Part shown: piece by piece, positions 82-16,869 of the stretch | Layout of the letters: each line of letters opens with the position of its first letter | How positions within the stretch are numbered: position 1 is the stretch's first letter | Source of the DNA: Salipiger pallidus | GTDB taxonomy: Bacteria; Pseudomonadota; Alphaproteobacteria; Rhodobacterales; Rhodobacteraceae | Direction of reading: 5' to 3' | NCBI RefSeq assembly: GCF_014643635.1 | Contig: NZ_BMJV01000003.1 | Coordinates: 372,001 to 436,000, forward strand | DNA: 64,000 bases | Notes under the pieces: model-generated | Databases searched by the model: none | Told to the model about the DNA's origin: nothing | The model's input: the letters and a program-made list of their open reading frames with translations, nothing else | Translations under genes and position numbers: made by a program

Positions 82-528
82 ATGACCGATGTACAGACGA
101 TCACTGCCAGCACCTCGCAGCTTGAGGCGCTTCAGGACCTGTTGTCGCGCAGCACCGACACCCATGCGTGGTATGAAGCCATGGCTGAAAGGGCCGAGCC
201 GCAATTCCGGCCGGTGGCTTTGAAATATCGCGGACTGCATTCCGAGCAATGCGACCGCATTGGTGCGATCATGGTGGCGCTTGGCGGTGATCCCGACCGC
301 ACAGAGGGCATCCGCACCGCCGTCAATCGCACCTCGGTGTCACTGCGCGCGGTGTTCGACGACATCGACCTCGACATGCTGTCGCGCATCGAAGAGGCCG
401 AGGCCGACGTGATCTCGGATTTCGATGCCTCGATCTCTGGCTTGCCGGAGTCGCGCTACCGCGAAGAGCTGATCGACATGAAAGCCGAGCTTCTCAAACT
501 TCTGGGCGAAGATCCGGCCATCGACTGA
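82..528 (+). CDS. PA2169-type four-helix-bundle protein (DUF2383)
   Basis: This 148-residue soluble protein resembles the PA2169/DUF2383 family, whose members fold as ferritin-like four-helix bundles. Its biochemical role is not known; some family members are linked to stress. The sequence is almost wholly helical in character, with no signal peptide or membrane segment. The early segment (around residues 15-60, with LEALQDLL and KYRGLHSEQCDRIG) and the acidic C-terminal helices fit the family length of about 145-150 residues. The ATG follows an AAGGAT-like ribosome site. The gene stands alone, since a strong hairpin terminator follows and the next gene converges on it. The family call rests on overall pattern rather than on a catalytic motif, so the function stays open. 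Confidence 0.7.
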   Translation: MTDVQTITASTSQLEALQDLLSRSTDTHAWYEAMAERAEPQFRPVALKYRGLHSEQCDRIGAIMVALGGDPDRTEGIRTAVNRTSVSLRAVFDDIDLDMLSRIEEAEADVISDFDASISGLPESRYREELIDMKAELLKLLGEDPAID

Positions 529-633: not shown

Positions 634-1911
634 TCAGAAGCTGAACAGTGACCCCAGCCCGAGGCTGATCATCGGCACGTAGGTGATCAGCAGCAGCGCG
701 AGGATGATCGTCGCGATGGGCCAGACCAGCGCCGGGAAGATCTGCTGCACCGGGATCTTGGCCACGGCTGCGGCGGCAAAGAGGTTCACCCCCAGCGGCG
801 GCGTGAACATCCCCAGCGCCAGGTTCACCACGATGCCGATGCCGAAATGCACCGGGTCGATGCCGAAGGACAGCGCCACCGGTGTCAGGATCGGTGCCAG
901 CACGAGGATCGCGGCCGAGGTTTCGATGAACATGCCGACGACCAGAAGCAGCACGTTGATCGCCAGCAGGAAGGTCAGCGCCGACGAGAAGGTGTTCTGC
1001 GTCCAGTCACCCACCGCGTCGGGCAGGCCCGACAGGCTGATGAGGAAGCTGAACAGCGTCGCCGCGGCGATGATCAGCATGACGACGCCCGAAGACACCG
1101 CCGCCTCGCGGAAGAGCTTGGGCAGGTCGCTGATCTTCAGCTCGCGGTAGACCAGAAGACCCAGCACGAGGGCGTAGATCACCGACACGGCGGCGGCCTC
1201 GGTCGGGGTGAAGACACCGCCGTAGATGCCGCCGATGATGATGACCGGCATCATCAGGGCCCAGAACGCCTTGCGGAAGGCGGGGAAGAGGGGGGCGCGG
1301 TCGTCGCCGTCCCGGTCGCCCACGCCTTTCACGCGGCACCAGATCTGCACCATGATGACCAGCCCGCCCGAGATCAGAAGCCCCGGCACGAGGCCCGCAA
1401 GGAACAGCTGGGTGATCGAGGTTTCGGTGGACACCGCGTAAAGGATCAGCGGCACCGAGGGTGGGATGATCACGCCCAGTTCCGCCGACGCCGCCTGGAT
1501 GGCCGATGCCATGGGCACCGGGTAGCCATGGCGCACCATGGCCGGGATCAGGATCGAGCCGATGGCGAAGGTCGTTGCCACGGACGAGCCTGAGATCGCG
1601 GCGAAGATCATGCAGGTCAGCACGCAGGAGCTGGCGAGCCCGCCGCGCATGCCGCCGATCATGGATTTCACGAACTCCACCAGCCGGTGCGAGATGCCGC
1701 CATGGGTCATCAGAACGCCCGCGAGGATGAAGAACGGCACCGCCATCAGCGGGAAGCTGTCGAGGCCGGTGAACATCTTCTGCGGCACCACCAGAAGCGG
1801 CAGGTTCGAGAAGAACTGGATCGAGATCACCGAGGCCAGCCCGATGGAGATCGCCACCGGGACCGACAGGCCGAACAGGATAACGAGCGACAGGACAAGT
1901 GCGCTGTTCAT
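634..1911 (-). CDS. TRAP transporter large permease (DctM type)
   Basis: This 425-residue, very hydrophobic protein is the large membrane subunit of a tripartite ATP-independent periplasmic transporter, which moves organic acids inward using the sodium gradient. It shows the many membrane helices and the conserved internal stretches of the family, for example SGSSVATTFAIGSILIPAM and the region around GGIYGGVFTPTEAAA, and has the usual length. Its ATG overlaps the stop of the small permease gene by 4 bases, so the two are translationally coupled. It is the last gene of the apnO-like, dctP, dctQ, dctM unit. The neighbouring enzymes of sugar-acid breakdown suggest D-apionate or a related acid as the substrate, but the sequence itself does not show this. 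Confidence 0.93.
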   Translation of the reverse strand: MNSALVLSLVILFGLSVPVAISIGLASVISIQFFSNLPLLVVPQKMFTGLDSFPLMAVPFFILAGVLMTHGGISHRLVEFVKSMIGGMRGGLASSCVLTCMIFAAISGSSVATTFAIGSILIPAMVRHGYPVPMASAIQAASAELGVIIPPSVPLILYAVSTETSITQLFLAGLVPGLLISGGLVIMVQIWCRVKGVGDRDGDDRAPLFPAFRKAFWALMMPVIIIGGIYGGVFTPTEAAAVSVIYALVLGLLVYRELKISDLPKLFREAAVSSGVVMLIIAAATLFSFLISLSGLPDAVGDWTQNTFSSALTFLLAINVLLLVVGMFIETSAAILVLAPILTPVALSFGIDPVHFGIGIVVNLALGMFTPPLGVNLFAAAAVAKIPVQQIFPALVWPIATIILALLLITYVPMISLGLGSLFSF

Positions 1912-2384
1912 AGCTCACCCCTTTCTGCCTGGAGGTGGCGCAGCATCAGGCCGGGAACGGCCAGCAGCGCGCCGACGGGAATGGCGTAATAGAAGACCGA
2001 CATGGGCATATCCAGCATGGCGACCCGCTGGCTCGACACGCGGTCGGCCATGGCCAGCCCGTACCAGACAAGCACCCCGAGGAAGATCAGCGTCAGCAGT
2101 GTCACAAGGCGGATCACCCAGAGCTGGCCGCGCTCGGGCAGCAGGCTGCGCAGGAAGTCGATGGGGATCATCGCGCCCAGCTTGAACCCCGCCCCGGCGG
2201 CAAGGAACGTCGACCAGACGATCAGCCCGCGGGCCAGCACTTCGGACCACACGGCGGCATCGCCGAGGACAAAGCGGGTGACGACCTGGATGAAGACAAG
2301 GAGGGTGGCCGCGGCAAGCAGCAGCGCGGCAAGGTTGTGCGCAAGGGCGACGATCACGTCGCCGGCGCGGGTCAGGCGGTTCAT
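1908..2384 (-). CDS. TRAP transporter small permease (DctQ type)
   Basis: This 158-residue membrane protein has four hydrophobic stretches, as expected for the small DctQ subunit that couples the binding protein to the large permease. The segment RFVLGDAAVWSEVLARGLIVW is typical of the family, with a Trp-Ser-Glu element near the second helix. The start lies downstream of a strong hairpin that separates it from the binding-protein gene. The stop overlaps the dctM-type start by 4 bases. The DctQ family is poorly conserved, so the call also leans on the position between the P and M subunit genes. Confidence 0.9.
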   Translation of the reverse strand: MNRLTRAGDVIVALAHNLAALLLAAATLLVFIQVVTRFVLGDAAVWSEVLARGLIVWSTFLAAGAGFKLGAMIPIDFLRSLLPERGQLWVIRLVTLLTLIFLGVLVWYGLAMADRVSSQRVAMLDMPMSVFYYAIPVGALLAVPGLMLRHLQAERGEL

Positions 2385-2410
2385 TGGAAACGCTCCCGTC
2401 GATGAAAGTG

Positions 2411-2432
2411 AGGAGGGCGCGAACGCCCTCCT
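2411..2432 (-). promoter_or_regulatory. Intercistronic stem-loop between dctP- and dctQ-type genes
   Basis: On the minus strand AGGAGGGCG and CGCCCTCCT form a perfect 9-bp stem around a TTCG tetraloop, 20 bases after the binding-protein stop. No T run follows, so it is more likely an RNA-stabilising or partial-termination element. Such elements let binding-protein genes be expressed above their permeases. Confidence 0.7.
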
Positions 2433-2452
2433 TCGGCGGTGCTTGCGGGCGT

Positions 2453-3424
2453 TTACTGCTGCGCGGCGCGGATGCGCTCGATCAGCTCGGGGCTGTAGCG
2501 GTCGGCGTATTCGTCATACGCCGGCTGCACTGCCTCGGCCCATGCGGCCTTGTCGATGCTCTCGACGACCTGCATGCCGTTTTCCTTCATCTGCTCGACG
2601 CCGGCGGTCTCGTTGTTGGCAACGGTCTCGCGGGCGGCATCGGCTGCGGCCTGAGCGGCCTCGCGCACCCAGCCCTGTTCCTCTTCGGACAGCTGGTCCC
2701 AGTGGATCTGGCTCATCGCCACCACGGCGGGGGAATAGACGTGGCCCGTGAGGGTCACGAAGTCCTGCATTTCCCACATGTTGTTGGCGGTGATGATCGG
2801 AACCGGGTTTTCCTGCCCGTCGATGGTGCCCTGTTGCAGCGAGGTCAGAACCTCGGTCCAGCTCATCGGGGTCGGCGCGGCTCCGGTGGCCTGGAAGGCT
2901 GCGATGTGCACCTCGTTTTCCATGGTGCGCAGCTTGAGGCCTTCCATGTCCTCGGGCGTTTCGACCGGGTGGACCGAGTTGGTCACGTGGCGGAAGCCGT
3001 TTTCCGACCATGCAAGGCCGATGATTCCGTGGTCGGTGAATTCGGCAAGGATCTCCTGGCCGATTTCGCCGTCCAGCACCTCATGGGCGGACTCGTAGCT
3101 GTCGAACAGGAACGGGAAGTCGAGCGCGTAGACCTCGGGAACGAAGTTGCCGATCGGGCCGGTGGACGAGATGGTCAGCTCGATGGTGCCGATCTGCAGG
3201 CCCTCGATCACGTCGCGTTCGCCGCCAAGGGCGCCCGACGGCTTGAGCGCGACTTCGAGATCACCGCCCGACAGCTCTTCGAGGGTCGACTTGAAGGCCT
3301 TGCCCGCGTCGCCGTAATGCGAGTTGATCGGCGGAGTGAAGGCAAGGTTCAGCGTCTTTGCGCTCACGGGGGCCGCAATCGCCACCGACGCCATGAGTGC
3401 TGCAATCGTGGTAAACTTGGTCAT
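2453..3424 (-). CDS. TRAP transporter substrate-binding protein (DctP type)
   Basis: This 323-residue periplasmic binding protein begins with a clear Sec signal peptide (residues 1-22, ending PVSA). The mature part has DctP family features: the early PPINSHYGDAGKAF region, the ELTISSTGPIGNFVPEVYALDFPFLF stretch and WTEVLTSLQQGTIDGQENP. The Arg in LKLRTMENEVH lies where family members hold the substrate carboxylate. The gene follows the oxidoisomerase-like gene on the same strand and precedes the two permease genes. In context the ligand is probably a sugar acid such as D-apionate. The ligand cannot be read from sequence alone. Confidence 0.92.
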   Translation of the reverse strand: MTKFTTIAALMASVAIAAPVSAKTLNLAFTPPINSHYGDAGKAFKSTLEELSGGDLEVALKPSGALGGERDVIEGLQIGTIELTISSTGPIGNFVPEVYALDFPFLFDSYESAHEVLDGEIGQEILAEFTDHGIIGLAWSENGFRHVTNSVHPVETPEDMEGLKLRTMENEVHIAAFQATGAAPTPMSWTEVLTSLQQGTIDGQENPVPIITANNMWEMQDFVTLTGHVYSPAVVAMSQIHWDQLSEEEQGWVREAAQAAADAARETVANNETAGVEQMKENGMQVVESIDKAAWAEAVQPAYDEYADRYSPELIERIRAAQQ

Positions 3425-3504
3425 CCTGTTTCCTCCCTTGGATGATAAGCAACCGGCGGAGCATGCGCCCCGCCGAAATCTGGAGATCTGCGCTAAGCTA
3501 TGCC

Positions 3505-4332
3505 TCAGGTGATCCGGTGAATGGAGGCCTCGATTTCCTCGGGCTTGAAGACGTCCTTCCAGTCGTCCCGCATCAGGGCGGGCTTGCCGAACTCGATGGC
3601 CTTGTTGCAGGCGTCCGAGAACTGGCCGTCGATCTGGTCGAAGATCACCGCGCCAAGGATGTTCATGTGGCCCAGCAGGAAGTCGCGGGCACAGTCGTAA
3701 CTGACGCCGCGGGCGACAACCTCGTCCATGGCTTCGCGCATGACCACCAGCAGCGACGCGCAGACGGTTTCCGACAGGCCCGGCTCGAGCAGGGCCATCT
3801 GTTCCACGCTCACGCGGTAGGTGCGGGCAACGGGGGCGTAGATGGCGCGCGAAATGGCTTCGCCGATCTCGTAATGCTCTTCAGGGCCCTGCATCAGCGC
3901 GTTGACCACGCCCTGCTGTGCCGCGACGCCGCCGAAGTAGTCCTTGCGGCCCGCTTCGGTGTTTTCATCGTTGAAGATCGGCGGGTGGCAGGGGTGGGTG
4001 ACGAAATAGGTGATGTCCTCACGCTCGGGCAGGTGGCCGGCGAAGGGCGCTGCGGCGTCGAGGATGACGACCATGGTTCCGGGCTTCAGTTGCGGCACGA
4101 GGCCCTGGGCCACCTTGCCGATCACGGTGTCCGGCACCGCGAGGATCACGACATCGGCGGCGCCGATGGCGGCTTCGGGCGTCACCGCCTCGACACCGAC
4201 TTCCTTCTTGAGGCGTTCCTTGCCGACATCGCTGACTTCGACGTGGCGCACGTCGAAATCGGTTTTCGCAAGGTTCAGGGACAGGCGCACGCCCATCTTC
4301 CCGCCCGCGCCGAACAGGGCAACTGTGGTCAT
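3505..4332 (-). CDS. apnO: Probable D-apionate oxidoisomerase (6-phosphogluconate dehydrogenase-like)
   Basis: This 275-residue NAD-dependent enzyme starts with a Rossmann dinucleotide site (GAGGKMG, residues 8-14) and continues with the phosphogluconate-dehydrogenase C-terminal domain type found in the DUF1537 kinase neighbourhood. Family members next to DUF1537 kinases and RuBisCO-like proteins include D-apionate oxidoisomerase, which oxidises D-apionate and shifts a hydroxymethyl group to give 3-oxo-isoapionate. Here the gene is divergent from the kinase gene and heads the TRAP operon, which fits that role. The ATG at 4332 is chosen because the Rossmann motif follows at once and a TCGGGAGGAAA ribosome site precedes it. 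A related four-carbon acid sugar dehydrogenase is the main alternative. Confidence 0.72.
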   Translation of the reverse strand: MTTVALFGAGGKMGVRLSLNLAKTDFDVRHVEVSDVGKERLKKEVGVEAVTPEAAIGAADVVILAVPDTVIGKVAQGLVPQLKPGTMVVILDAAAPFAGHLPEREDITYFVTHPCHPPIFNDENTEAGRKDYFGGVAAQQGVVNALMQGPEEHYEIGEAISRAIYAPVARTYRVSVEQMALLEPGLSETVCASLLVVMREAMDEVVARGVSYDCARDFLLGHMNILGAVIFDQIDGQFSDACNKAIEFGKPALMRDDWKDVFKPEEIEASIHRIT

Positions 4333-4364
4333 CTGGTTTCCTCCCGACAGTCTCATCGTGTTAA

Positions 4365-4377
4365 CTGGTATAATCAG
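4365..4377. promoter_or_regulatory. Candidate GntR operator in the apnO/oiaK divergent promoter
   Basis: CTGGTATAATCAG is an imperfect palindrome that resembles the TTGGTATACCAA class of sites bound by FCD-type GntR regulators. It lies 33 bases before the apnO-like start and 95 before the kinase start. Related sequences occur at 13833 and 13858 in the other divergent promoter of the island. Binding is inferred. Confidence 0.45.
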
Positions 4378-4471
4378 ATACTCTTCATCTTGTTTTGTCA
4401 ATCGACCTTTGGCATTTCTGTTACAGGCCGCCCCCTGGCAGCCCATTGTTCGACGAGGAGGACTGACGCAA

Positions 4472-5842
4472 ATGACCACGCCCACAGACCGCATCAGCCC
4501 GCGCATCGCGTGGTATGGCGACGATTTCACCGGCTCTGCCGCCGTCATGGAGGTGCTGGCCTTTGCCGGGCTGCGCAGCGTGCTGTTCTCGGACATCCCC
4601 GATACCGCGCTGCTGCAACGGTTCGGCGATGTGGAAGCGGTGGGCCTTGCCAGCACCGCCCGCACCCATGACCCGGACTGGATGCGCGAGAACATGCCCG
4701 AGGGCCTGTCGTGGCTGACCGGGCTGGGGCCGGAGCTGCTGCACTACAAGGTCTGCTCGACTTTCGATTCCTCACCGACCTCGGGCAATATCGGCACCGC
4801 GATCGAAACCGCGCTGGCGGTTCGCCCCGCAACGGCGGTGCCCCTTGTCACCGCCGCGCCGCAGATGCGCCGCTACCAGAGCTTCGGGCATCTTTACGCG
4901 GGCACCTTCGACGGGGTCTACCGGCTTGACCGGCACCCGGTCATGTCCCGCCACCCGGTGACGCCGATGCAGGAGGCGGACCTTCTGCGCCACCTTGCCG
5001 AACAGACCGACCTGCCCTCGGCGCTGATCGACCTGGAACAGCTTTGGGCCGACGGCGGGCAGGGGGCGCTGGAGGCCGCGCTGGGTCAGGGCGCGTGCAT
5101 CCTGTCCATGGACAGCATGGAGCCGGTGTCCGAGGCCGCCGTGGGCCGCCTGATCTGGGAAAATCGCAACCGGCTGGGGCTGGCGGTTGGCTCGCAGGGG
5201 CTCGAATATGCGCTGGTGCGCCACTGGCAGCAGACCGGCGAGATCCCCGTGGCCAAGGCGCCGGGATCGGCGGGCAAGGTGGACCGAATCGCGGTGATCT
5301 CGGGGTCCGTTTCGCCCAGCACGGCGCAGCAGATTGCGTGGTCCAAAGCGCATGGATTTGAGGTCATCTCGTTTGACGCCACCGCCATCCTGTCACCCGA
5401 GGGCACCGAGGCCGAGATTGAAACCGCCACCCGCGCCGCCCTTGCTGCAACCGAACGTGGGGCAAGCTCTCTGGTCACCTCGGCGACCGGGCCAGACGAC
5501 GCCCGCGTGGCCGACTTCCGGCAGGCGCTGTCCGAAAGCAGCATGTCCGGCGAAGAGGCCAACGCCCGTATCGGGCAGGCCTTGGGCCGGGTGCTGGACG
5601 GCACGCTTGAGGGCAGCGGACTGCGGCGCGCAGTGATCTCGGGCGGGGATACTTCAGGGCACGGGATGCGGGCGCTAGGGCTTTCGGCGCTCGAAGCGCT
5701 GGCCCCGACGATCCCGGGCGCATCGCTGTGCACCGGGCATTCCACCGGCGTGCACGACGGGCTTCAGATCGCGCTTAAGGGCGGGCAGATGGGGTCCGAG
5801 GATTTCTTCGGCTGGATCCGCGACGGGGCAGGAGCGCGCTGA
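4472..5842 (+). CDS. oiaK: Probable 3-oxo-isoapionate kinase (DUF1537, four-carbon acid sugar kinase family)
   Basis: This 456-residue cytoplasmic protein belongs to the DUF1537 kinase family, which phosphorylates sugar acids such as threonate, erythronate and 3-oxo-isoapionate. The N-terminal WYGDDFTGSAAVMEVL (residues 14-29) is the family's conserved DDxTGS substrate-domain motif, and the glycine-rich segment VISGGDTSGHGMRALG near residue 390 belongs to the nucleotide-binding domain. The ATG is preceded by GAGGAGG. With an ApnO-like enzyme divergent to it and a RuBisCO-like protein in the same island, 3-oxo-isoapionate is the likeliest substrate, giving the 4-phosphate. The family is certain; the exact substrate is inferred from neighbours. 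Confidence 0.78.
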   Translation: MTTPTDRISPRIAWYGDDFTGSAAVMEVLAFAGLRSVLFSDIPDTALLQRFGDVEAVGLASTARTHDPDWMRENMPEGLSWLTGLGPELLHYKVCSTFDSSPTSGNIGTAIETALAVRPATAVPLVTAAPQMRRYQSFGHLYAGTFDGVYRLDRHPVMSRHPVTPMQEADLLRHLAEQTDLPSALIDLEQLWADGGQGALEAALGQGACILSMDSMEPVSEAAVGRLIWENRNRLGLAVGSQGLEYALVRHWQQTGEIPVAKAPGSAGKVDRIAVISGSVSPSTAQQIAWSKAHGFEVISFDATAILSPEGTEAEIETATRAALAATERGASSLVTSATGPDDARVADFRQALSESSMSGEEANARIGQALGRVLDGTLEGSGLRRAVISGGDTSGHGMRALGLSALEALAPTIPGASLCTGHSTGVHDGLQIALKGGQMGSEDFFGWIRDGAGAR

Positions 5843-5986
5843 AAGGGGCAGGGGGGCATGTTAGTGGCCGCTCTTGCAGCGGCGCCGCGAACGCTGCGCA
5901 TGATCGCCGGAGTAGGCTGAACGCATCGCTGAAGCAAATCGCCGGAGGGCGCTGTCATCGGCGCCCCCAGATAGGCGCGCAGGCCG

Positions 5987-6700
5987 CTATTCGAAGCTTT
6001 CGCGGGAGCGTTGCAGGTGCCGCCGCATTTCGTCCGCGGCACCTTCGGTGTCCCCGGCTTCGATGTGATCGGTGATCTTGGCATGTTCCGCCAGCGTCAC
6101 CTGTTCCGACCCCGACCGGTGCAGCAGGCTGATGTGATGCTCGAAGAGCCAGCCCAGCATCACGTCCGACAGCGCGGCGATGATCGGGTTGCCCGCCAGC
6201 GTCGCCAGCTTGCGGTGGAAATCCATGTCGGCGGCGATGAAGTCATGCGGATTGCCCAGTTGCGCCCGCTGCGCTTCGACAAGGCGGCGCAGTTCGGCCA
6301 CGTCCTCGGGGGTGGCGCGTTCGGTGGCGACGCGGACCAGGCCCACTTCGAACATCTGACGCGCTTCCTTGAGCTGCTCGAGCGACGCGGGCGTGGAGCT
6401 GAGGACAAGACGCGCCAGTTCGTCGCCCTGGTGCAGCACGGTGCTGGCGTCGATGGCGTTCACCCGGCTGCGTTCGCCGTGGTTAATGGTGATGAGCCCG
6501 CTGTTGTGCAGGCTTTGCAGCGCCTCGCGCACCGCAGGACGGCCAACGCCGAAGCGGTCCATCAGCGCCCGCTCGGAGGGCATGGTGTCACCGGGCTTCA
6601 GCTCGCCCTCGCGGATCATGTCATGCAGGCGCTCAAGCACCTGGTCGGACAGTTTGCGGCGAACGATCTTGCCCTCTCGGGCGGATGCCTGGCGGTTCAT
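5987..6700 (-). CDS. GntR family transcriptional regulator (FadR/FCD subfamily)
   Basis: This 237-residue protein has an N-terminal GntR winged helix (residues 12-75; LSDQVLERLHDMIREGELKPGD, PSERALMDRFGVGRPAVREAL) and a C-terminal FCD ligand domain (residues 95-230). The FCD metal and acid-binding residues are visible as DFHRKLATLAGN and the later His in LAEHAKITDHIEAGD. FCD regulators commonly sense sugar acids. The gene follows the lactonase gene on the same strand after a 61-base gap that holds a possible autoregulatory site. It is the obvious candidate regulator for the whole apiose-type island, either as a repressor relieved by an intermediate or otherwise. Confidence 0.9.
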   Translation of the reverse strand: MNRQASAREGKIVRRKLSDQVLERLHDMIREGELKPGDTMPSERALMDRFGVGRPAVREALQSLHNSGLITINHGERSRVNAIDASTVLHQGDELARLVLSSTPASLEQLKEARQMFEVGLVRVATERATPEDVAELRRLVEAQRAQLGNPHDFIAADMDFHRKLATLAGNPIIAALSDVMLGWLFEHHISLLHRSGSEQVTLAEHAKITDHIEAGDTEGAADEMRRHLQRSRESFE

Positions 6701-6734
6701 GCGGGGTCTCCCTGTCAGACATGTATTACAAGTG

Positions 6735-6750
6735 AACAAGTATACTGTTT
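6735..6750. promoter_or_regulatory. Candidate autoregulatory GntR site upstream of the FCD regulator
   Basis: AACAAGTATACTGTTT is an imperfect palindrome centred on GTATAC, 35 bases before the regulator start. It shares the GTAT core with the other candidate operators of the island. The region is AT-rich compared with its surroundings, as expected for a promoter or operator. Confidence 0.35.
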
Positions 6751-6761
6751 TGGTACAGAGA

Positions 6762-8447
6762 TCAAACCTCTCCGACATCCACGGAATAAGGAGCGAGGCC
6801 GTTCTGCTCCACCGGTTCAAGATTTGCGCGCAGCCGCCGACCGGCGACAGTCAGCGTGGCGATGCCGTCGCGGATGTCGGCCTGCTCGACGGGGTGTCCG
6901 GCCAGCCCCGAGAGCACCTTGAGCACTTCTGCCAGCGGGTAGGGTCCGTCCAAGCCGGTAATGCCGCGCGGGCCGAGCACGCAGGTCGGTGTCCAAACCG
7001 CGATCCCCGCAGATGCCAGCGCTGTGGCAAGGCCCAACACGTAGGCCGCGCCGAACGTGCCCCGGTGGCGGGGGTCGTCGTCGGTCATGCAAACGGTGCT
7101 GCCCTTGGGGTTTGGAATGGTGCGCGAGCCGTAGGGGTTCTGGCGCATGGCGATGGTTGCTGGGCCAATGCGGTACTCTCGCCCGTCCGCGATGGCCAGC
7201 GCAGAAGCGGTGATGTGGGGCACGGCTTGAAGCGTTTCCATCACCGCATGGTCATCCGCCGCGTGGACGATGGGGCAGAGCCCGTGGGTGATGAAATCGA
7301 GCCCCTTGGTCGGCGGGCGCTTGCGGTTCAGCTCGGTGAAAAGGCTGGCCATGCCGCCGCCCCGTGTCACGTTCGGGAAAGCCTGCGCGGCGGCGGCGTG
7401 AATCTCGGCCAGCGGCGGGCAGGCGGGCCAGTCCGACCCCGGCGGCGTCGATTGCCGGTCCACCGACGGGCAGGTGAAGACCGATGCAGGCGTGAACCCC
7501 GCTCCGGTCATGGCGTTTGCGTGGGCGTGCAGCTCCGGCCCCGGCGGGCCGTCGAAGCTGCCGATCAGTTCCAGATCGTAGATCATATCCGGCACCGCGT
7601 GCTGAAGCGCGGCGAAGGCAGCGAACTGGTCTGCCACCGCGCCATGGGTCGCATCCACGTGACACAGCAGCCGCTGCGGCGAGACCAGCGCCAGCGGCGA
7701 TGGGTCCTGCGCAAGCACTGTCGCCTCCTCGGGCGTGACCAGCAGGGCGGTCTCGGGGAAGGTCGGGGCGACAACCCGGGGGCGCGGCGATGGCACGGCG
7801 GGGGCCTCGGCATGGCTCCAGCCCAGCGTGACCTCCTGCGGCGGATAGGTGCCCTGCGGCAGGGCGTAGGGCCACGGCAGGTCGAGCGAGCGGTTGTAGG
7901 TCTTGAAGGACGCATCGCCCCATTGCCGCTGGTCTTCCATCTCGAACGTGTCGCCCGACAGCGCGCAGGAGATGGCAAGGCCATTCGCCACGTAATCCAG
8001 TCGCACGATGTCCTCGAAGGGCCGCCACGGGTCGATGAGCGTGGGGAAGGGTTTGTCCTGCGTTTGCCCGTCCGGGTGTGTGACCGTGGCGGGGGCCCCG
8101 GCGACGCCCTCGATGGGGTGCAGCAGGGTAAACCCCGCGCGGTTCGTCTCGAACGGGGCGTCCGCGGTGCCGGTGGCGCGCAGGGTCAGCGCCGAGCCGG
8201 TCAGCGACAGCGCCACCGTGACCGACAGCGTGGCGCCATCGGTGCGGAAAGTGAGCGGGATGAGCAGGCCGATGCCCTCTCCGCCGGTCTCCTGCACCTC
8301 GCCCACCTCGGCGGGGATGGTGCCCCAGTCGCGGTCGCGTACGAGGAAGGCGACCTGGCGGATGATCTCGGTCTCGCCCAGCCGCAAATACCGCAGCGCG
8401 CCACCATCGAGGGTGAAGCTCAGATCGCCAAGGCTGTAGCGGCTCAC
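6762..8447 (-). CDS. apnL: Probable D-apionate lactonase
   Basis: This 561-residue protein without signal peptide matches the general look of the ApnL group: an N-terminal beta-rich part (RYLRLGETEIIRQ, LVRDRDWGTIPAEVGE) followed by a TIM-barrel-like part. In the published D-apiose route the lactonase opens apionolactone made by apiose dehydrogenase. I recognise the gene partly by its opening motif and partly because it is directly coupled to an ApsD-like dehydrogenase. A GTG at 8447 is chosen because it overlaps the upstream stop as GTGA; other in-frame starts lie far inside the previous gene. A hydrolase of another sugar lactone is possible. Confidence 0.62.
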   Translation of the reverse strand: MSRYSLGDLSFTLDGGALRYLRLGETEIIRQVAFLVRDRDWGTIPAEVGEVQETGGEGIGLLIPLTFRTDGATLSVTVALSLTGSALTLRATGTADAPFETNRAGFTLLHPIEGVAGAPATVTHPDGQTQDKPFPTLIDPWRPFEDIVRLDYVANGLAISCALSGDTFEMEDQRQWGDASFKTYNRSLDLPWPYALPQGTYPPQEVTLGWSHAEAPAVPSPRPRVVAPTFPETALLVTPEEATVLAQDPSPLALVSPQRLLCHVDATHGAVADQFAAFAALQHAVPDMIYDLELIGSFDGPPGPELHAHANAMTGAGFTPASVFTCPSVDRQSTPPGSDWPACPPLAEIHAAAAQAFPNVTRGGGMASLFTELNRKRPPTKGLDFITHGLCPIVHAADDHAVMETLQAVPHITASALAIADGREYRIGPATIAMRQNPYGSRTIPNPKGSTVCMTDDDPRHRGTFGAAYVLGLATALASAGIAVWTPTCVLGPRGITGLDGPYPLAEVLKVLSGLAGHPVEQADIRDGIATLTVAGRRLRANLEPVEQNGLAPYSVDVGEV

Positions 8448-9466
8448 AGCTCGGACAGCGCGACGGTGCGCCCCTCCTTCGCTGACAGGTAAGCCGCCTC
8501 GACCAGTGCGAATGTCTTGAGGTTGTCCGCCGCCTCCGTTTCGGGGGCGCGGCCCGCCGTGATGGCCTCCACGAAGTGCTTCTGGATCAGCGCCACGCTT
8601 TCCTGAATGTTGTGCCAGGGCGCTTCGGCCCATGGCAACCTCGGCGGTGACACATCGTCGGTCCGGCTTTCGCCGCCGGCCTGCACCGTCAGCCTGTACC
8701 CGGCATCAAGGCGCAGGGTGCCGTCGGTGCCGTCGATCTCGAGCAGCGTTTCCGGGAAAGTCTCGGGCTGGCGTCTGGTTGCGTAAGAGCAATCCACCAC
8801 GGAGGTCACGCCGCCCTCGTGGGCGAGCAGCATGGTGGCCACGTCCTCGCCCTTGATGGCGGGGTTGATGCGGGTGGTGGTGGCGGTGATCCGCGCCACG
8901 TCCCCGAAGAGCGCGCGCGAGATGTCGAGGATATGGATGCCGAGATCCTCGATGATGAAACGCTCGCCGGTGGCAAGGTAGGGCTGCCCCGAAAACACGT
9001 CATAGCCTGACCGGAAGCTCACCCGGCCAAAGAACGGCGTGCCGATGGCGCCGCCGCGCAGCAGCTCGATGACGCGGCGCACGGCGGATTGCCAGCGGAA
9101 GTTCTCGTGGATCATGAGCACCTTGCCGGTGGCGGCCACGGCATCAGTCATGGCGCGGGCATCGGCAAGGGTGGGGGCAAAGGGCTTCTGGCAGATGACA
9201 TGCACGCCGTGGCGGGCGGCCATTTCCACCAATGCGCGGTGGCTGCCCACGGTGGTGGCGATGTCGACGAAATCGAAACCGCCTTTCGCGAACATCTCTT
9301 CGGCATCCGCGTGGCGGCGGTCGATGCCGAACGCGTCCCCGGCTTCGGCCAGCCGGGCGGGATCGCTGTCGCAGATCGCGACGATCTCGGCATCGGGCAG
9401 GTCCGCCCATCCGTGCAGCTGGTTGCGAGCAAAGAACCCGCAACCGATGAGTGCGCCTTTCAGCAT
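8444..9466 (-). CDS. apsD: Gfo/Idh/MocA family oxidoreductase, probable D-apiose dehydrogenase
   Basis: This 340-residue NAD(P)-dependent dehydrogenase has the Gfo/Idh/MocA layout: an N-terminal Rossmann site (ALIGCGFFARNQ, residues 5-16), the family QKP motif (VICQKPFAPT, around residue 95) and a mixed alpha/beta C-terminal domain with the EDLGIHILDISRALFG catalytic stretch. In this setting, between an apiose-type ABC permease and a lactonase, it probably oxidises D-apiose to apionolactone. It starts 7 bases after the permease stop and is coupled to the lactonase gene. The family is certain and the substrate is inferred from neighbours. Confidence 0.75.
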   Translation of the reverse strand: MLKGALIGCGFFARNQLHGWADLPDAEIVAICDSDPARLAEAGDAFGIDRRHADAEEMFAKGGFDFVDIATTVGSHRALVEMAARHGVHVICQKPFAPTLADARAMTDAVAATGKVLMIHENFRWQSAVRRVIELLRGGAIGTPFFGRVSFRSGYDVFSGQPYLATGERFIIEDLGIHILDISRALFGDVARITATTTRINPAIKGEDVATMLLAHEGGVTSVVDCSYATRRQPETFPETLLEIDGTDGTLRLDAGYRLTVQAGGESRTDDVSPPRLPWAEAPWHNIQESVALIQKHFVEAITAGRAPETEAADNLKTFALVEAAYLSAKEGRTVALSEL

Positions 9467-9473
9467 GTCTGCC

Positions 9474-10538
9474 TCACTTTCCCACCATGGCCTGCGATTG
9501 CAGGGTGACGCGGGCCTGTACCTTTTGTTGCGCCTGGTCGATGACCACGGCGGCGACGATGACAAGGCCCTTGATGACCGTCTGCCAGAAGGCCGAGACG
9601 CCCATCATCACCAGCCCGTCCGACAGCACGCCGATCACGAAGGCCCCGACGATGGTGCCGCCGATGCGGCCCCGCCCGCCGGACATGGAGGTGCCGCCAA
9701 GCACGGCCGCCGCGATGGCGTTCAGTTCGAAAGTGTCGCCCGTGGCAGGGTGGGCTGCAACCAGTTGCGACGAGATGATGATGCCAACCAGTGCCGCGCA
9801 GAAGCCCGAGAACATGTAGACGAAGAACTTAACGCGGGTGACCTTGACCCCCGACAGCCCCGCCGCCCGTTCGTTGCCGCCCACTGCATAGATGAACCGG
9901 CCCAGCGGCGTGCGCTTGGCGATGTAGGCGGCCACAAGCCCCACCACGATCAGCATCCAGATCGAGATCGGCACCCCCAGAAGGCTGCCAGAGCCGATCA
10001 TCCGGTAGGTGTCTGAGCCGTATTCCGCGTTGCCGGTGAGGTTGGGGAAGGTCTCGCCCTCGCTCGACAGCAGGGCGGCGCCGCGCGCGATGTAAAGCGT
10101 GCCAAGGGTGGCGATGAAGGGCGCGACGTTCAGCTTGGTTATCAGGAAGCCGTTCAGCGCCCCGATGGCTATGCCGACAAGGCAGACGATGAGGCAGATC
10201 TCGAGCGTGTTGAACTGGATCGACCAGCCAAGCCCTATGTCGATCCCGTTGAGGAGCAGGAAGCCCGCCACCATGCCGCAGAGCCCGACGATGGAGCCCA
10301 CCGACAGGTCGATCCCGCCCGAGACGATGACGAAGGTCATGCCGATGGCAAGGAAGGCGTTGAGCGCGACGTGTTTCGACATGATAACCATGTTCGCCGC
10401 CGACAGGAAGTTCGGCGCGAAGATCGCGAAATAGGTGAAGACGAGGATCAGCGCGATGAAGGTCCGGGCCTTCATCAGCATCAGAAGCGCGCTGGTGGTG
10501 CCGGATTGCGCCGGTCCGGATGCGGTCATGTCGGTCAT
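9474..10538 (-). CDS. ABC sugar transporter permease (RbsC type)
   Basis: This 354-residue integral membrane protein is the permease of a ribose-type (CUT2) ABC importer. It has about ten hydrophobic segments and the family signatures AIGMTFVIVSGGIDLSVGSIVG and AAAVLGGTSMSGGRGRIGGT, the latter being the cytoplasmic loop that meets the ATPase. The start shares one base with the ATPase stop (TGATG). CUT2 systems use one permease gene as a homodimer, which fits the single permease here. The cargo is probably D-apiose given the downstream dehydrogenase and lactonase. Confidence 0.93.
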   Translation of the reverse strand: MTDMTASGPAQSGTTSALLMLMKARTFIALILVFTYFAIFAPNFLSAANMVIMSKHVALNAFLAIGMTFVIVSGGIDLSVGSIVGLCGMVAGFLLLNGIDIGLGWSIQFNTLEICLIVCLVGIAIGALNGFLITKLNVAPFIATLGTLYIARGAALLSSEGETFPNLTGNAEYGSDTYRMIGSGSLLGVPISIWMLIVVGLVAAYIAKRTPLGRFIYAVGGNERAAGLSGVKVTRVKFFVYMFSGFCAALVGIIISSQLVAAHPATGDTFELNAIAAAVLGGTSMSGGRGRIGGTIVGAFVIGVLSDGLVMMGVSAFWQTVIKGLVIVAAVVIDQAQQKVQARVTLQSQAMVGK

Positions 10539-12115
10539 CAGGCGGGTTCCTTCTGGGAGGCGCTTTCGGAGCCGTGCAGGTCAGGGGCGTGGCCCACCGA
10601 GCTTGCGGTCACGAGCGCGGTGTCGGTCGCGGTGTCGCGGGTGAATTCGCCGGTGATCCGGCCATTGGACATGACAAGGATGCGGTCCGACAGGCCCAGC
10701 ACCTCCTCGAGGTCCGAGGTGACAAAGACGATGCCTAGTCCCTCGGCGGCCAGCTGGCGCATGACGCGGAAGACTTCGGCCTTGGCGCCGATGTCGATGC
10801 CGCGCGACGGCTCGTCCATCAGTAGCACCTTGGGATTCGTCATCAGCGCCTTCGAGATCACCACCTTTTGCTGGTTGCCGCCCGACAGGGACGACACCGG
10901 GTTCTCGGGCGAGGCGATCTTGATCACCATGCGTTTCACGAAGTCCTTCACGCGGGACCGTTCCTTGCCGAGGTCCATGTGAACGCCGCCCCTTGTGACA
11001 TCGCCCAGCGATGACAGGGTCATGTTCTCGCGGATCGACAGGTCCTGCACGAGGCCGTCATGCTTGCGGTCCTCGGGGATGAGCGCCAGGCCATGGGCGA
11101 TGCGATCTGCCACGCTGGCGCGGCCCATGGGCTTGCCGTCCACCTCCACGAGACCGGCGGCGTGGGAATGGCGGCCCATGATCGCCTCGACCAGTTCGGT
11201 GCGTCCCGCGCCCATCAGGCCGTAGATCCCGAGGATCTCGCCCTGCCGCAGGCTGAAGGACACGCCGTTCACCACGAAACCGCCCGCGCCGTCAGCCATG
11301 CGCATGTCGGTGACCTTCAGCACCTGGCCGCCGTAGGGGTGGTCGATCTCCTTGGGAAATTCCTTGCTGCTGTCGCCGATCATGGCGCGGACGATCCACG
11401 CGATGTCGACGCCCTCCATCGACCGCGCCCCGGTGATCGCGCCGTCGCGCAGCACGGTGATGTAATCGCCCACGCGGATGAGTTCCTCCATCCGGTGCGA
11501 GATGTAGACGATGCCGACGCCTTCGGCCTTCAGCTCGTCGATGACGCGGAACAGGATTTCGACCTCTGCCGCCGACAGGGCCGAGGTCGGCTCGTCGAGG
11601 ATGAGGATGCGGGCATCGCGGGCAAGGCTCTTGGCGATTTCGACGATCTGCTGCTGCCCGACCTTGAGATCGCCCACCAGCGTGTCCGGGTCGATGTCAT
11701 GCTCCAGCCGCCGCATGAGTTCGGCGGTCAGGCGGCGCTGCTCGGCGGCATCGATGTCGATGCCGCCCCGGGTCTTTTCGTGCGCCATGAAGATGTTGTC
11801 CGCCACCGAAAGGTTCGGGAACAAATTCAGCTCCTGGAAGATCATCCCGATGCCGTGCTTTTCGGCCTCGTCGGTGGAGGTCAGGTGAACCTCGCGCCCC
11901 TCCATCTCGATCCGGCCCGAGGTCAGCTGTTCGACCCCGGCGATGACCTTCATCATGGTGGATTTGCCAGCGCCGTTTTCGCCCACCAGCACGTTGACCG
12001 CGCCCATGTGCAGGTCGAAGTCCACCTCCTTGAGTGCCACGGTACCGGGATAGACTTTGGTGCCGCCGCGGATCGACAGGCCAATGGGGTGGGAGGCTGC
12101 GGGATGCGCGCTCAT
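10538..12115 (-). CDS. ABC sugar transporter ATP-binding protein (RbsA type, double cassette)
   Basis: This 525-residue protein carries two ABC cassettes in tandem, as CUT2 sugar importers do. The first has an intact Walker A (GENGAGKST, near residue 45), a switch region and LILDEPTSAL. The second, from about residue 265, has the degenerate Walker A (GLMGAGRTEL), the signature LSGGNQQKV and LLMDEPSRGID typical of the family. The start overlaps the DUF2291 stop by 4 bases. It would energise uptake of the sugar caught by the binding protein encoded upstream. Confidence 0.95.
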   Translation of the reverse strand: MSAHPAASHPIGLSIRGGTKVYPGTVALKEVDFDLHMGAVNVLVGENGAGKSTMMKVIAGVEQLTSGRIEMEGREVHLTSTDEAEKHGIGMIFQELNLFPNLSVADNIFMAHEKTRGGIDIDAAEQRRLTAELMRRLEHDIDPDTLVGDLKVGQQQIVEIAKSLARDARILILDEPTSALSAAEVEILFRVIDELKAEGVGIVYISHRMEELIRVGDYITVLRDGAITGARSMEGVDIAWIVRAMIGDSSKEFPKEIDHPYGGQVLKVTDMRMADGAGGFVVNGVSFSLRQGEILGIYGLMGAGRTELVEAIMGRHSHAAGLVEVDGKPMGRASVADRIAHGLALIPEDRKHDGLVQDLSIRENMTLSSLGDVTRGGVHMDLGKERSRVKDFVKRMVIKIASPENPVSSLSGGNQQKVVISKALMTNPKVLLMDEPSRGIDIGAKAEVFRVMRQLAAEGLGIVFVTSDLEEVLGLSDRILVMSNGRITGEFTRDTATDTALVTASSVGHAPDLHGSESASQKEPA

Positions 12116-12747
12116 GGGCGCACCTCGAGCGATGTGGGCACCGCCATGGGCGTCTCGGCGCTGCTGTTGAGGCCGAAGACCCCGGTGAAGGCAACGGTGC
12201 TGCCGGTCAGGTCGCCTGACAATTCAGGCAGGTTCGCGGTGGCACGGTCATTGAGCGCGCGGCCCAGCTTGGCAAATTCGATCTGGTCGCGGAAATCGGT
12301 GAAGCTGACGAAGGGCAGGGCGTCGCGCAACGCGGTGCCGCGCACCACCGGTCCAAGCTGCAGCGCGATGTCGGCGCTGCCGTCGCCGTCCATGTCCAGC
12401 TCCATGCGCCGGGCGCGGCTGTCCAGGTTGGCCTCGACCACCTGGCCTTCGCCCTGCATGAAGAAGAACCACGGGCCGTTGTCGCTGGGGCGCAGGCCCT
12501 CGGCCTCTCCGGCGGGCTGAAGGCCCTCTTCCAGCGCTGCGCTGAACGCGGGCCAGGTGGTGCGGTTGTCCTCGGCGGCGGGCAGGACGCGCGCGTCCCA
12601 GTTCTCGTCGACCCAGGCGGCCATGCGGTCTTCGTCGCTCATGTTGGCGGCGGCCACCTCTTCGGGGTCGGGGTTCGGCACGATCTTGCAGGCGGCAAGA
12701 GGCAGGGCGGCACAAAGCAGTGCCGCAGTCATGGAAGCTGCGCGCAT
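12112..12747 (-). CDS. DUF2291 family lipoprotein
   Basis: This 211-residue protein starts with a lipoprotein signal (lipobox LAAC, Cys20) and then matches the DUF2291 pattern, including KIVPNPDPEE after the Cys and the Asn-Asp-rich middle. DUF2291 proteins are found almost only inside ribose-type ABC sugar operons, but their job is unknown. An accessory role at the membrane or in the periplasm with the binding protein is a reasonable guess. Here the gene sits between the binding protein and the ATPase and is coupled to the latter. A stem-loop precedes it. Confidence 0.82.
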   Translation of the reverse strand: MRAASMTAALLCAALPLAACKIVPNPDPEEVAAANMSDEDRMAAWVDENWDARVLPAAEDNRTTWPAFSAALEEGLQPAGEAEGLRPSDNGPWFFFMQGEGQVVEANLDSRARRMELDMDGDGSADIALQLGPVVRGTALRDALPFVSFTDFRDQIEFAKLGRALNDRATANLPELSGDLTGSTVAFTGVFGLNSSAETPMAVPTSLEVRP

Positions 12748-12773
12748 GTCGGTCTCGTCTGGCTTGGAATGGT

Positions 12774-12799
12774 GCGGCCCGCCACCCTTGGCAGGCCGC
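12774..12799 (-). promoter_or_regulatory. Stem-loop between the ABC binding-protein gene and the rest of the operon
   Basis: GCGGCCTGCC and GGCGGGCCGC on the minus strand pair over 10 bp with one wobble around a 6-nt loop. It lies 15 bases after the binding-protein stop and lacks a T run. This suits an mRNA-stabilising or attenuating element that raises binding-protein output over the permease genes. Confidence 0.65.
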
Positions 12800-12813
12800 G
12801 AAAGGCTGTCGGA

Positions 12814-13776
<963 letters not shown>

Positions 13777-13832
13777 TCAGATCAGCACGGCACCCACCAC
13801 GGTGCCGCCTCCACGCTGATGTCCGTAAAGGT

Positions 13833-13848
13833 TGTGGTATGATTTACA
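13833..13848. promoter_or_regulatory. Candidate GntR operator 1 upstream of the RuBisCO-like gene
   Basis: TGTGGTATGATTTACA carries the GGTATRAT core also seen at 4365. It lies in the 136-base divergent region between the ABC binding-protein gene and the RuBisCO-like gene, 69 bases before the former. Its GGTAT is 24 bases from that of the second copy. Confidence 0.42.
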
Positions 13849-13857
13849 CATTGTCAA

Positions 13858-13870
13858 CAGGTATGATGAG
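13858..13870. promoter_or_regulatory. Candidate GntR operator 2 upstream of the RuBisCO-like gene
   Basis: CAGGTATGATGAG repeats the GGTATGAT core of the neighbouring site in the same orientation. It ends 30 bases before the RuBisCO-like start and 8 bases before a run (TTGAACC) that leads into the ribosome site. Function as an operator is inferred. Confidence 0.42.
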
Positions 13871-13900
13871 CACTACAGATTGAACCAAGGAGGACCGCCA

Positions 13901-15169
13901 ATGAGCCAGCAGCCGATGATCCGCGTCACCTACCGCATCGAGACGCCCGGAGACCCCGAGGCGCTTGCGGCCAAGATCGCGTCCGACCAGTCCACCGGCA
14001 CCTTCACCGAGCTTCCGGGCGAGACCGAGGCCCTGCGCGCCCGCTTTGCAGCAAGGGTCGAAAAGGTCGTGCGGCTGGACGATTCCCCGGTGCCGGGCTT
14101 TCCCACGGACGAGGCCGGGCCGTTCCACCGCGCGGATGCGACCATCGCCTACCCGCTGGAGGCCATCGGCACCGACATCGCGGCGCTGATGACCGTTACC
14201 GTGGGCGGTGTCTACGCGGCGCGGGGGCTCTCCGGCGTTCGAGTGATGGATTTCGACCTGCCGCAGGAATGGGCCTGCCATCCCGGCCCGCAGTTCGGTA
14301 TCGACGGTTCGCGCCGTCTGATGGGCGTGGACAAGGGGCCGATGATCGCGTCGATCATCAAGCCGTCGCTGGGCCTGACCGCCGAAGAGACCGCCGAGGT
14401 GGTCCGCACCCTCTGCGAGGCGGGGGTGGATTTCATCAAGGACGACGAGAAGATGATGAACCCCGGCTATGCCCCTCTCGAGGCGCGGGCCGATGCCATC
14501 CTTCCGGTGATCGAGGATCATTACCAGAAGACCGGCAAGCGGGTGATGTACGCCTTCGGGATCTCGTCCGCGGATCCGGACGAGATGATGCGGCGCCATG
14601 ATTACGTGGCCGATCGCGGCGGGCTTGCGGCGGTGGTCAACATCAACTCCATCGGCCATGGCGGCATGAGCTACCTGCGCAAGCGGTCCAAGCTGTGCCT
14701 GCACGCGCATCGCAACGGCTGGGACATCCTCACGCGGCATCCGGCGCTGGGCATGGAATTCCGCGCCTACCAGAAGATCTGGCGCCTTCTGGGCGTCGAC
14801 CAGTTCCAGATCAACGGGCTTCAGGCCAAGTACTGGGAGCCGGACGAAAGCTTCGTGCGCAGCTTCCACGCGGTGCGCGAGCCGATCTTCTCGGAGGCCG
14901 ACCGGCCCCTGCCGGTGGTCTGCTCCGGCCAGTGGGGCGGGCAGGCGGTCGAGACCTACAACCGCACCGGCAAGACGCTGGATCTCATGTATCTTGGCGG
15001 CGGCGGCATCCACGGCCACCCAATGGGTCCGGGTGCGGGCGTGCGCGCCATCCGGCAGGCTTGGGACGCGGCCGAGGCCGGGCTGACCCTTGGCCAGATG
15101 GCCGCCGATCACCCCGAGCTGGACGCGGCGCTGAAGAAGTGGGGCACGCCCGAGATGCTCGGGGCCTGA
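13901..15169 (+). CDS. RuBisCO-like protein, probable 3-oxo-isoapionate-4-phosphate decarboxylase or transcarboxylase/hydrolase
   Basis: This 422-residue protein is a form IV RuBisCO-like protein. It keeps the Lys that binds the carbonyl end of the substrate (SIIKPSLGL, Lys154) and the metal-site segment GVDFIKDDEK with the carbamylated Lys at 180 and the two Asp and Glu ligands. The phosphate-binding loops near the C-terminus are seen as LYLGGGGIHGHPMGPGAG-like sequence. In D-apionate catabolism such proteins act on 3-oxo-isoapionate 4-phosphate, either removing CO2 (OiaX) or cleaving it to 3-phosphoglycerate and glycolate (OiaT). Which one this is cannot be decided by eye. The ATG follows AAGGAGG. 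Confidence 0.82.
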   Translation: MSQQPMIRVTYRIETPGDPEALAAKIASDQSTGTFTELPGETEALRARFAARVEKVVRLDDSPVPGFPTDEAGPFHRADATIAYPLEAIGTDIAALMTVTVGGVYAARGLSGVRVMDFDLPQEWACHPGPQFGIDGSRRLMGVDKGPMIASIIKPSLGLTAEETAEVVRTLCEAGVDFIKDDEKMMNPGYAPLEARADAILPVIEDHYQKTGKRVMYAFGISSADPDEMMRRHDYVADRGGLAAVVNINSIGHGGMSYLRKRSKLCLHAHRNGWDILTRHPALGMEFRAYQKIWRLLGVDQFQINGLQAKYWEPDESFVRSFHAVREPIFSEADRPLPVVCSGQWGGQAVETYNRTGKTLDLMYLGGGGIHGHPMGPGAGVRAIRQAWDAAEAGLTLGQMAADHPELDAALKKWGTPEMLGA

Positions 15170-16652: not shown

Positions 16653-16869
16653 CGGCGGTCCTTCTGGTCTGGTGTCGCGGGCAAGCAGGGTCCGGTTGCA
16701 TACGAACGGCATATTCCTTGCGCATCCTTTGGGCTTCAAGTGGTGAACGTTGTCGGGCAGGCGGGCTGCGAGTTGATCCCGGCGACAAGTCCCCCCACAG
16801 TCGGGCAACGCCTTGAAACCGTGCAGCCGGCCCATGCCGCCGCACGTGCCCCGGAAAGGAGAGGCCCAC

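Follow-up and report, generated by a model that had tools for sequence, protein, structure and literature searches.

Pathways for D-apiose catabolism were reportedly described by Carter et al. in 2018 (Nat Chem Biol). In such catabolism, 3-oxo-isoapionate-4-phosphate is decarboxylated, or transcarboxylated/hydrolyzed, by two RuBisCO-like proteins (PMC6302742, excerpt), and a Rhodobacteraceae strain with five pathway enzymes, LCG007, grows on D-apiose as its sole carbon source (PMC11747546, excerpt). Here, a 64,000-nucleotide stretch of Salipiger pallidus DNA (referred to as the window; assembly GCF_014643635.1, contig NZ_BMJV01000003.1, positions 372,001 to 436,000, contig C3 of the 4.44-Mb genome in our numbering) was analyzed. 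Between the stop codon of dctM (position 634) and that of a gene for a RuBisCO-like protein (position 15169), the window contains 13 genes that probably form an island for D-apiose and D-apionate utilization of the OiaX type, with two import routes and with the last two catabolic steps supplied by an erythritol locus on another contig, C9. All gene types named in an earlier note on this DNA were found there by Pfam, NCBIfam, or structure matches, as were two that it did not list, a GntR regulator and a DUF2291 lipoprotein. Only the DUF1537 kinase and RuBisCO-like genes lie on the plus strand (Table 1), which creates one divergent promoter region between the oxidoreductase and kinase genes and another between the ABC receptor and RuBisCO-like genes. 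The remaining genes, from those for a tripartite ATP-independent periplasmic (TRAP) importer to those for a ribose-type ATP-binding cassette (ABC) importer, lie on the minus strand, where the apsD-like and apnL-like genes overlap by 4 bp.

The RuBisCO-like protein exceeded the cutoff of the OiaX model NF042437 (762.4 bits over residues 7 to 415; cutoff, 700). In a tree of 54 sequences, in which groups were preset at 60% identity to the window protein and no biochemically tested sequence was included, this protein and 27 OiaX-like proteins (62 to 84% identical) were split by a 100/100 branch from 26 proteins with 39 to 48% identity. The earlier note had left open whether the protein is OiaX or OiaT, a transcarboxylase/hydrolase that would yield 3-phosphoglycerate and glycolate and for which isomerases would not be needed. 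OiaT would suit an island in which no isomerase gene was found, as well as the retained catalytic lysines and KDDE motif (K154, K180, D182, and E183, invariant in 54 rows). These residues, together with H270 and R271, were kept in both groups, and we take them to be the RuBisCO active-site lysine, the carbamylated lysine with two metal ligands, and the phosphate-side His-Arg pair. Such sharing weighs against a distinction by residues, and the OiaX call rests on sequence. Seven members of the 39 to 48% group matched only the OiaX model (E ≤ 1e-80), at 422 to 469 bits and thus under the cutoff, and no OiaT model was among the matches of these seven. Given the model score, the grouping within OiaX-like proteins, and the presence of DerI genes in genomes with OiaX and among OiaX genes in Acidisoma (below), OiaT is very unlikely, and OiaX is the identity retained here.

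OiaX is expected to yield L-erythrulose 1-phosphate, which needs LerI and then DerI. A Pfam scan of the window frames found no isomerase gene in the island. The earlier description of the island as complete-looking therefore does not hold: its route stops at a tetrulose phosphate, and the two isomerases required next are encoded on C9. The genome contains two triose-phosphate isomerase (TIM) genes and one RpiB-type gene, and the second TIM gene adjoins the RpiB-type gene on C9. The RpiB-type protein passed the DerI cutoff (NF051858, 252 bits versus 240), and the second TIM, which matched only triose-phosphate isomerase models (NF000722, 415.4 bits), is taken as LerI because it adjoins DerI. 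The same locus carries a second ABC system of this type with DUF2291, the receptor of which is ∼48% identical to the putative apiose receptor. Located 9 to 14 kb beyond TIM/DerI were genes for an FGGY kinase, a DAO dehydrogenase, a xylose-isomerase-like TIM barrel (isomerase/racemase type), and a regulator with a sugar-binding domain, presumably of the EryA, EryB, EryC, and EryD types, respectively. EryH and EryI are equivalent names for LerI and DerI. The erythritol enzymes of Brucella comprise EryA, EryB, EryC, EryH, and EryI (PMC11508834, excerpt).

In a family survey of 394 genomes (approximately one per genus), DerI-type genes scoring at least 223 bits, a threshold set post hoc from the gap between 223.7 and 171.2 bits, were found in 7/7 genomes with OiaX and in 24 of the 387 others (Fisher test, which treats kin genomes as independent, P = 9.5e-9). 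The RuBisCO-like group of 39 to 48% identity showed no such enrichment, with DerI in 2/44 genomes (P = 0.56; 1/44 at the strict cutoff), which argues against the two genes meeting by chance in large genomes. In a second set, with the S. pallidus genome as its single overlap with the first, DerI reached this threshold in 20/21 genomes with OiaX and in none of three genomes carrying the other type of RuBisCO-like protein. Two results weigh against a strict dependence: at the strict DerI cutoff the counts fell to 5/7 versus 17/387 (P = 6.7e-6), and the best DerI match in one of the 21 genomes (G400, a metagenome-assembled genome [MAG]) reached just 152 bits. Physical linkage was found in three Acidisoma loci, with the orders oiaX-lerI-derI-gntR-oiaK-apnO (L047) and oiaX-derI-oiaK-apnO (L050 and L052), lerI being present in one of the three. 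At locus L178, an erythritol-type operon (FGGY kinase, DAO dehydrogenase, derI, lerI, and a DeoR regulator) adjoins the island. Co-occurrence and linkage together appear to be the strongest evidence, short of an assay, for the predicted OiaX product here.

The kinase matched the OiaK model NF042436 best of three models (463.6 bits); the 3-oxo-tetronate kinase and D-threonate kinase models gave 164.7 and 68 bits, respectively, so the protein does not group with threonate/erythronate kinases. The ABC receptor was 78% identical to RHE_PF00037 of Rhizobium etli and, with the OiaX score, bears out the proposed D-apiose/D-apionate route. The solved structure 5ibq reportedly holds D-apiose. That the island serves threonate or erythronate instead of apiose was considered, since four-carbon sugar acids are also among the substrates of DUF1537 kinases and of TRAP receptors of this type (PMC5812351, excerpt). 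The kinase scores point away from such routes and make this extremely unlikely. OiaX, ApnL, and an apiose-type ABC receptor, moreover, are not known to take part in threonate or erythronate routes.

Several assignments within the apiose route fall short of a full match and count against it. The kinase scored under the OiaK equivalog cutoff of 700, and the lactonase, whose frame had no Pfam match and whose sole NCBIfam match was the ApnL model NF049900, scored 575.3 bits against an equivalog cutoff of 750. These two proteins are predicted to be OiaK-like and ApnL-like in action, and neither is classed as the equivalog. No model among the NCBIfam matches sets ApsD or ApnO apart from relatives, and the NCBIfam matches of the oxidoreductase were weak, with none named ApnO. 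The dehydrogenase and the oxidoreductase, for which superfamily matches only were obtained, were thus assigned by superfamily and conserved neighborhood.

The analysis covered the stretch around the OiaX-type gene at 27 further loci, 21 of them from a named collection and 6 from the family survey. The kinase and the regulator were each kept in 26 of these loci, the oxidoreductase in 25, the dehydrogenase in 23, the lactonase in 20 (two at 28% identity), the ABC receptor and DUF2291 in 14, and a TRAP receptor of this type in 3; retention of the set across relatives indicates that the island content is not due to chance. DUF2291 was present in 14/14 relatives that kept this ABC receptor in the stretch examined. 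At L036, oiaX stood alone in the stretch and the ABC block was on another contig, while the L180 stretch ended before the expected position of the oxidoreductase. Both importers occurred together in the window and in 1/27 relatives, a Thioclava strain (L044). The island was patchy in the family, with OiaX over the cutoff in 7/394 genomes, and the same-genus genome G490 was not among them. Among 72,556 plasmid records, 300 matched related genes at E ≤ 1e-40, 69 of them at <60% identity. According to record fields, the alphaproteobacteria with the island included strains from sea water and others from legume roots.

D-apionate is the best guess for the substrate of the TRAP receptor. Residues R145, R166, and N206 of dctP match, with equal spacing, R152, R173, and N213 of 4P47, which hold the carboxylate in TRAP receptors; the source for these residues, which also lends general support to a pantoate/erythronate receptor group, cautions that ligands copurified with such receptors may not be native (PMC11668362, excerpt). 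The nearest solved TRAP receptors were 4nq8, 4pdd, 4pdh, 4pak, and 4p9k, which ranked first. Of these, 4nq8, 4pdd, 4pdh, and 4pak reportedly hold pantoate or erythronate, both of which D-apionate closely resembles. The genes dctPQM follow apnO in the window and at L044, L102, and L117 (the last with a 44% relative), an order found in 4/5 loci with such TRAP genes inside an island.

Alternatively, the TRAP importer may carry D-erythronate, pantoate, or another C4 to C6 sugar acid and have been captured by the operon. The nearest solved receptors would agree with this, as would two unlinked orthologue loci that hold other oxidoreductase and enolase-superfamily genes. The recurrent apnO-dctPQM order argues for D-apionate instead, as does a separate TRAP operon of Fulvimarina that carries the island motif (one mismatch), which the three unlinked TRAP systems lack at ≤3 mismatches, and as does the close likeness of D-apionate to both ligands. 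A different acid is on balance somewhat unlikely.

Other observations weigh against a D-apionate TRAP importer. The TRAP genes of Fulvimarina (L038) do not follow apnO, in the window apnO and dctP are separated by a weak terminator-like hairpin, and the unlinked TRAP orthologues (63 to 65% identical) sit among other genes. Pfam matches for five frames at each of two such loci (L099 and L101) included aldehyde dehydrogenases, a GntR regulator, Iso_dh, a 3-hydroxyisobutyrate-dehydrogenase-like protein, an amidase, an enolase-superfamily protein, and an iron alcohol dehydrogenase, and these neighbors did not point to a TRAP substrate. In P. nototheniae, both the dehydrogenase and the lactonase accompany the TRAP genes, but the best ABC receptor match is 48%; in Fulvimarina (a MAG), the dehydrogenase is retained along with the TRAP genes, and no ABC receptor match was obtained at E 1e-60. 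An importer of the acid only does not account for these two relatives. The TRAP importer could also accept D-apiose or D-apionolactone and, in some strains, stand in for the ABC importer; TRAP genes lie between apnO and apsD at L045/L102, where the best ABC receptor match of the genome is 48%. This is distinctly unlikely given that the carboxylate-binding residues are kept.

For S. pallidus, uptake of both the sugar and the acid, as the earlier note proposed, is likely, with D-apionate preferred for the TRAP arm. No apionate importer was described in the literature searched, a weak negative since most subscription papers lay outside the search. Loci L040, L041, and L047 contained oiaX, kinase, oxidoreductase, and regulator genes and no sugar dehydrogenase, lactonase, or ABC receptor gene in the stretch examined, and these strains are possibly apionate-only users. 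On a plasmid of Marivivens sp. LCG002 (L191, 1047-3307), genes for a GSDH/sorbosone-dehydrogenase-type protein and an alpha/beta hydrolase lie beside apnO-oiaK-nanR-oiaX, and no annotated ApsD or ApnL was found in the stretch. Apiose is perhaps oxidized in the periplasm there, which would be a reason for importing apionate.

De novo analysis of 7-letter words enriched upstream of kinase, oiaX, and ABC receptor genes revealed the shared words GGTATGA and GTATGAT. The resulting pattern, ACWGGTATRATSAG, occurred exactly twice in the genome, once in each divergent promoter region of the island (Table 1); in shuffled windows, the mean was 0.03 at ≤1 mismatch. At ≤1 mismatch it was found upstream of 25/25 kinase genes (window included), 18/26 oiaX genes, and 13/16 ABC receptor genes, counts that lean towards the motif because the pattern was written from words upstream of the same genes. 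It was found upstream of only 6/21 apsD genes and 1/9 dctP genes (L038, one mismatch). In the control, the match rate was 1.2% among 3000 random 160-base pieces drawn from these loci, possibly with the sites themselves among them. Part of the oiaX misses is explained by loci in which oiaX follows the kinase on a common promoter (L034, L035, and L045). The best match in the apnO-dctP gap of the window had four mismatches. NanR of Escherichia coli reads GGTATA repeats, and we infer that the NanR-like regulator pairs with ACWGGTATRATSAG. Two results weigh against this pairing or limit it: in 24/25 loci the regulator's own gene lacked the motif in its upstream region (≤1 mismatch), and a genome scan at ≤2 mismatches returned 28 matches versus 14 for the reversed control. 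The claim covers the two exact sites only. A one-mismatch site at C12:57077, near genes for a YkuD protein and LGT and a frame with no family assignment, was judged unrelated, and a promoter scan found no sigma-70 type site. A palindrome-like sequence that differs from the island motif, ATATCGTATCGGATAT, was observed upstream of dctP at L038, L099, L100, and L101; Fulvimarina L038 carries both.

With the order of reactions taken from the published pathway, the following route is proposed. The ABC importer would take up D-apiose, which the Gfo/Idh/MocA enzyme would oxidize to a product hydrolyzed to D-apionate by the lactonase, and the TRAP importer would take up ready-made D-apionate. The PGDH_C enzyme would isomerize and oxidize D-apionate to 3-oxo-isoapionate, which the DUF1537 kinase would phosphorylate; OiaX would decarboxylate the phosphorylated product to L-erythrulose 1-phosphate, and the second TIM of C9 (as LerI) and DerI would convert this to D-erythrose 4-phosphate. 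The NanR-like regulator would control both divergent promoters through the predicted operator sites.

Table 1. Features of the predicted D-apiose/D-apionate island (window positions) and of the associated locus on C9
Feature	Position	Strand	Evidence
dctM, TRAP large permease	634..1911	-	Pfam DctM 1e-118; TIGR00786 435.5 bits (cutoff 268.45)
dctQ, TRAP small permease	1908..2384	-	Pfam DctQ 5e-26
dctP, TRAP solute receptor, predicted D-apionate binder	2453..3424	-	Pfam DctP 9.9e-89; R145, R166, N206
apnO-like oxidoreductase, predicted D-apionate oxidoisomerase	3505..4332	-	Pfam PGDH_C 6.7e-69
Predicted operator, apnO/oiaK divergent promoter region	4364..4377	+	exact ACWGGTATRATSAG
oiaK-like DUF1537 kinase, predicted 3-oxo-isoapionate kinase	4472..5842	+	NF042436 463.6 bits; SBD_N 1.1e-45, NBD_C 2.5e-32
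NanR-like GntR/FCD regulator	5987..6700	-	NF003011 287.4 bits (cutoff 260; subfamily-type model); Pfam GntR-FCD
apnL-like lactonase, GTG start	6762..8447	-	NF049900 575.3 bits, E 1.5e-172
apsD-like Gfo/Idh/MocA dehydrogenase, predicted D-apiose dehydrogenase	8444..9466	-	Pfam GFO_IDH_MocA 1.8e-22
ABC permease	9474..10538	-	Pfam BPD_transp_2 2.9e-43
ABC ATPase	10538..12115	-	Pfam ABC_tran 6.3e-58, 2 stretches
DUF2291 lipoprotein	12112..12747	-	Pfam PF10054 1.5e-44
ABC solute receptor (abcS), predicted D-apiose	12814..13764	-	solved-structure match 8.9e-145
Predicted operator, abcS/oiaX divergent promoter region	13857..13870	+	exact ACWGGTATRATSAG
oiaX, RuBisCO-like, predicted 3-oxo-isoapionate-4-phosphate decarboxylase	13901..15169	+	NF042437 762.4 bits; Pfam RuBisCO_large 1.1e-71
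Erythritol-type locus L122	G000:C9:4585-19999		second TIM, DerI, class 1 fructose-bisphosphatase, class II aldolase, ABC system, ery-type genes

The left border of the island was located by synteny. The DUF2383 neighbor gene occurs in 15 other genomes of the genus; five of these were compared, and all five kept the genes left of the island up to the DUF2383 gene (window positions 82-528). Over the 9.6 to 13 kb past this gene, none of the five contained a match of ≥45% identity to the frames right of 634, and this loss of synteny places the border at 529-633. A hairpin with a T run lies in the same interval, 3' of the DUF2383 gene. A GC-rich inverted repeat (2385-2452) lies between dctP and dctQ. 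Adjoining the island, at 15525-19049, are genes for an alanine-racemase-like/D-serine-dehydratase-type protein and the ethanolamine ammonia-lyase subunits EutB and EutC. No tRNA was predicted in the window by ARAGORN.

If this assignment is right, the TRAP system would be a candidate importer for D-apionate, a compound scarcely mentioned in the literature searched, and some alphaproteobacteria would feed on apionate as well as apiose. It would also tie alphaproteobacteria of sea water and legume roots to apiose from plant walls. Plant debris, suggested earlier as a food source, fits this; the algal part of that suggestion found no support, the sources naming, in the parts available, higher plants and aquatic monocots. 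The survey suggests a genomic rule by which OiaX goes with DerI and the 39 to 48% group mostly does not, which would aid annotation by distinguishing the decarboxylase from other RuBisCO-like proteins, and the predicted operator defines a testable regulon. Two broader suggestions, for and against which the balance is about even, are that a D-apionate TRAP importer was recruited from the pantoate/erythronate receptor group and that OiaX-type apiose catabolism in these bacteria requires the two final enzymes of the erythritol pathway, in which case both pathways would spread and act as a pair.

The pathway itself has already been published and is mostly ordinary; what may be new is the TRAP arm, the operator, and the division of the route between the island and the erythritol locus. 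The ApsD-ApnL-ApnO-OiaK-OiaX logic is like that of the OiaX branch reported by Carter et al. The island would differ in its TRAP arm beside the ABC importer, its isomerases on another contig, and its predicted common operator. The five-enzyme cluster of LCG007 is similar, and the excerpt of PMC11747546 does not mention a TRAP system. Plasmid pTPRO1 of Salipiger profundus (NZ_CP014797.1) matches the island in gene order between the oxidoreductase gene and oiaX, DUF2291 and NanR included, but phosphonate genes rather than TRAP genes adjoin its oxidoreductase gene. Thioclava sp. SK-1 (L044) has both importers, with ABC and TRAP receptors 89% and 81% identical to those of the window, respectively, but its apnO-dctPQM genes lie downstream of oiaX and not opposite oiaK. 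Erythritol catabolism has the last two isomerizations in common with the proposed route (EryH/LerI and EryI/DerI), whereas it begins at erythritol, through a kinase and a dehydrogenase, and is encoded on another contig here.

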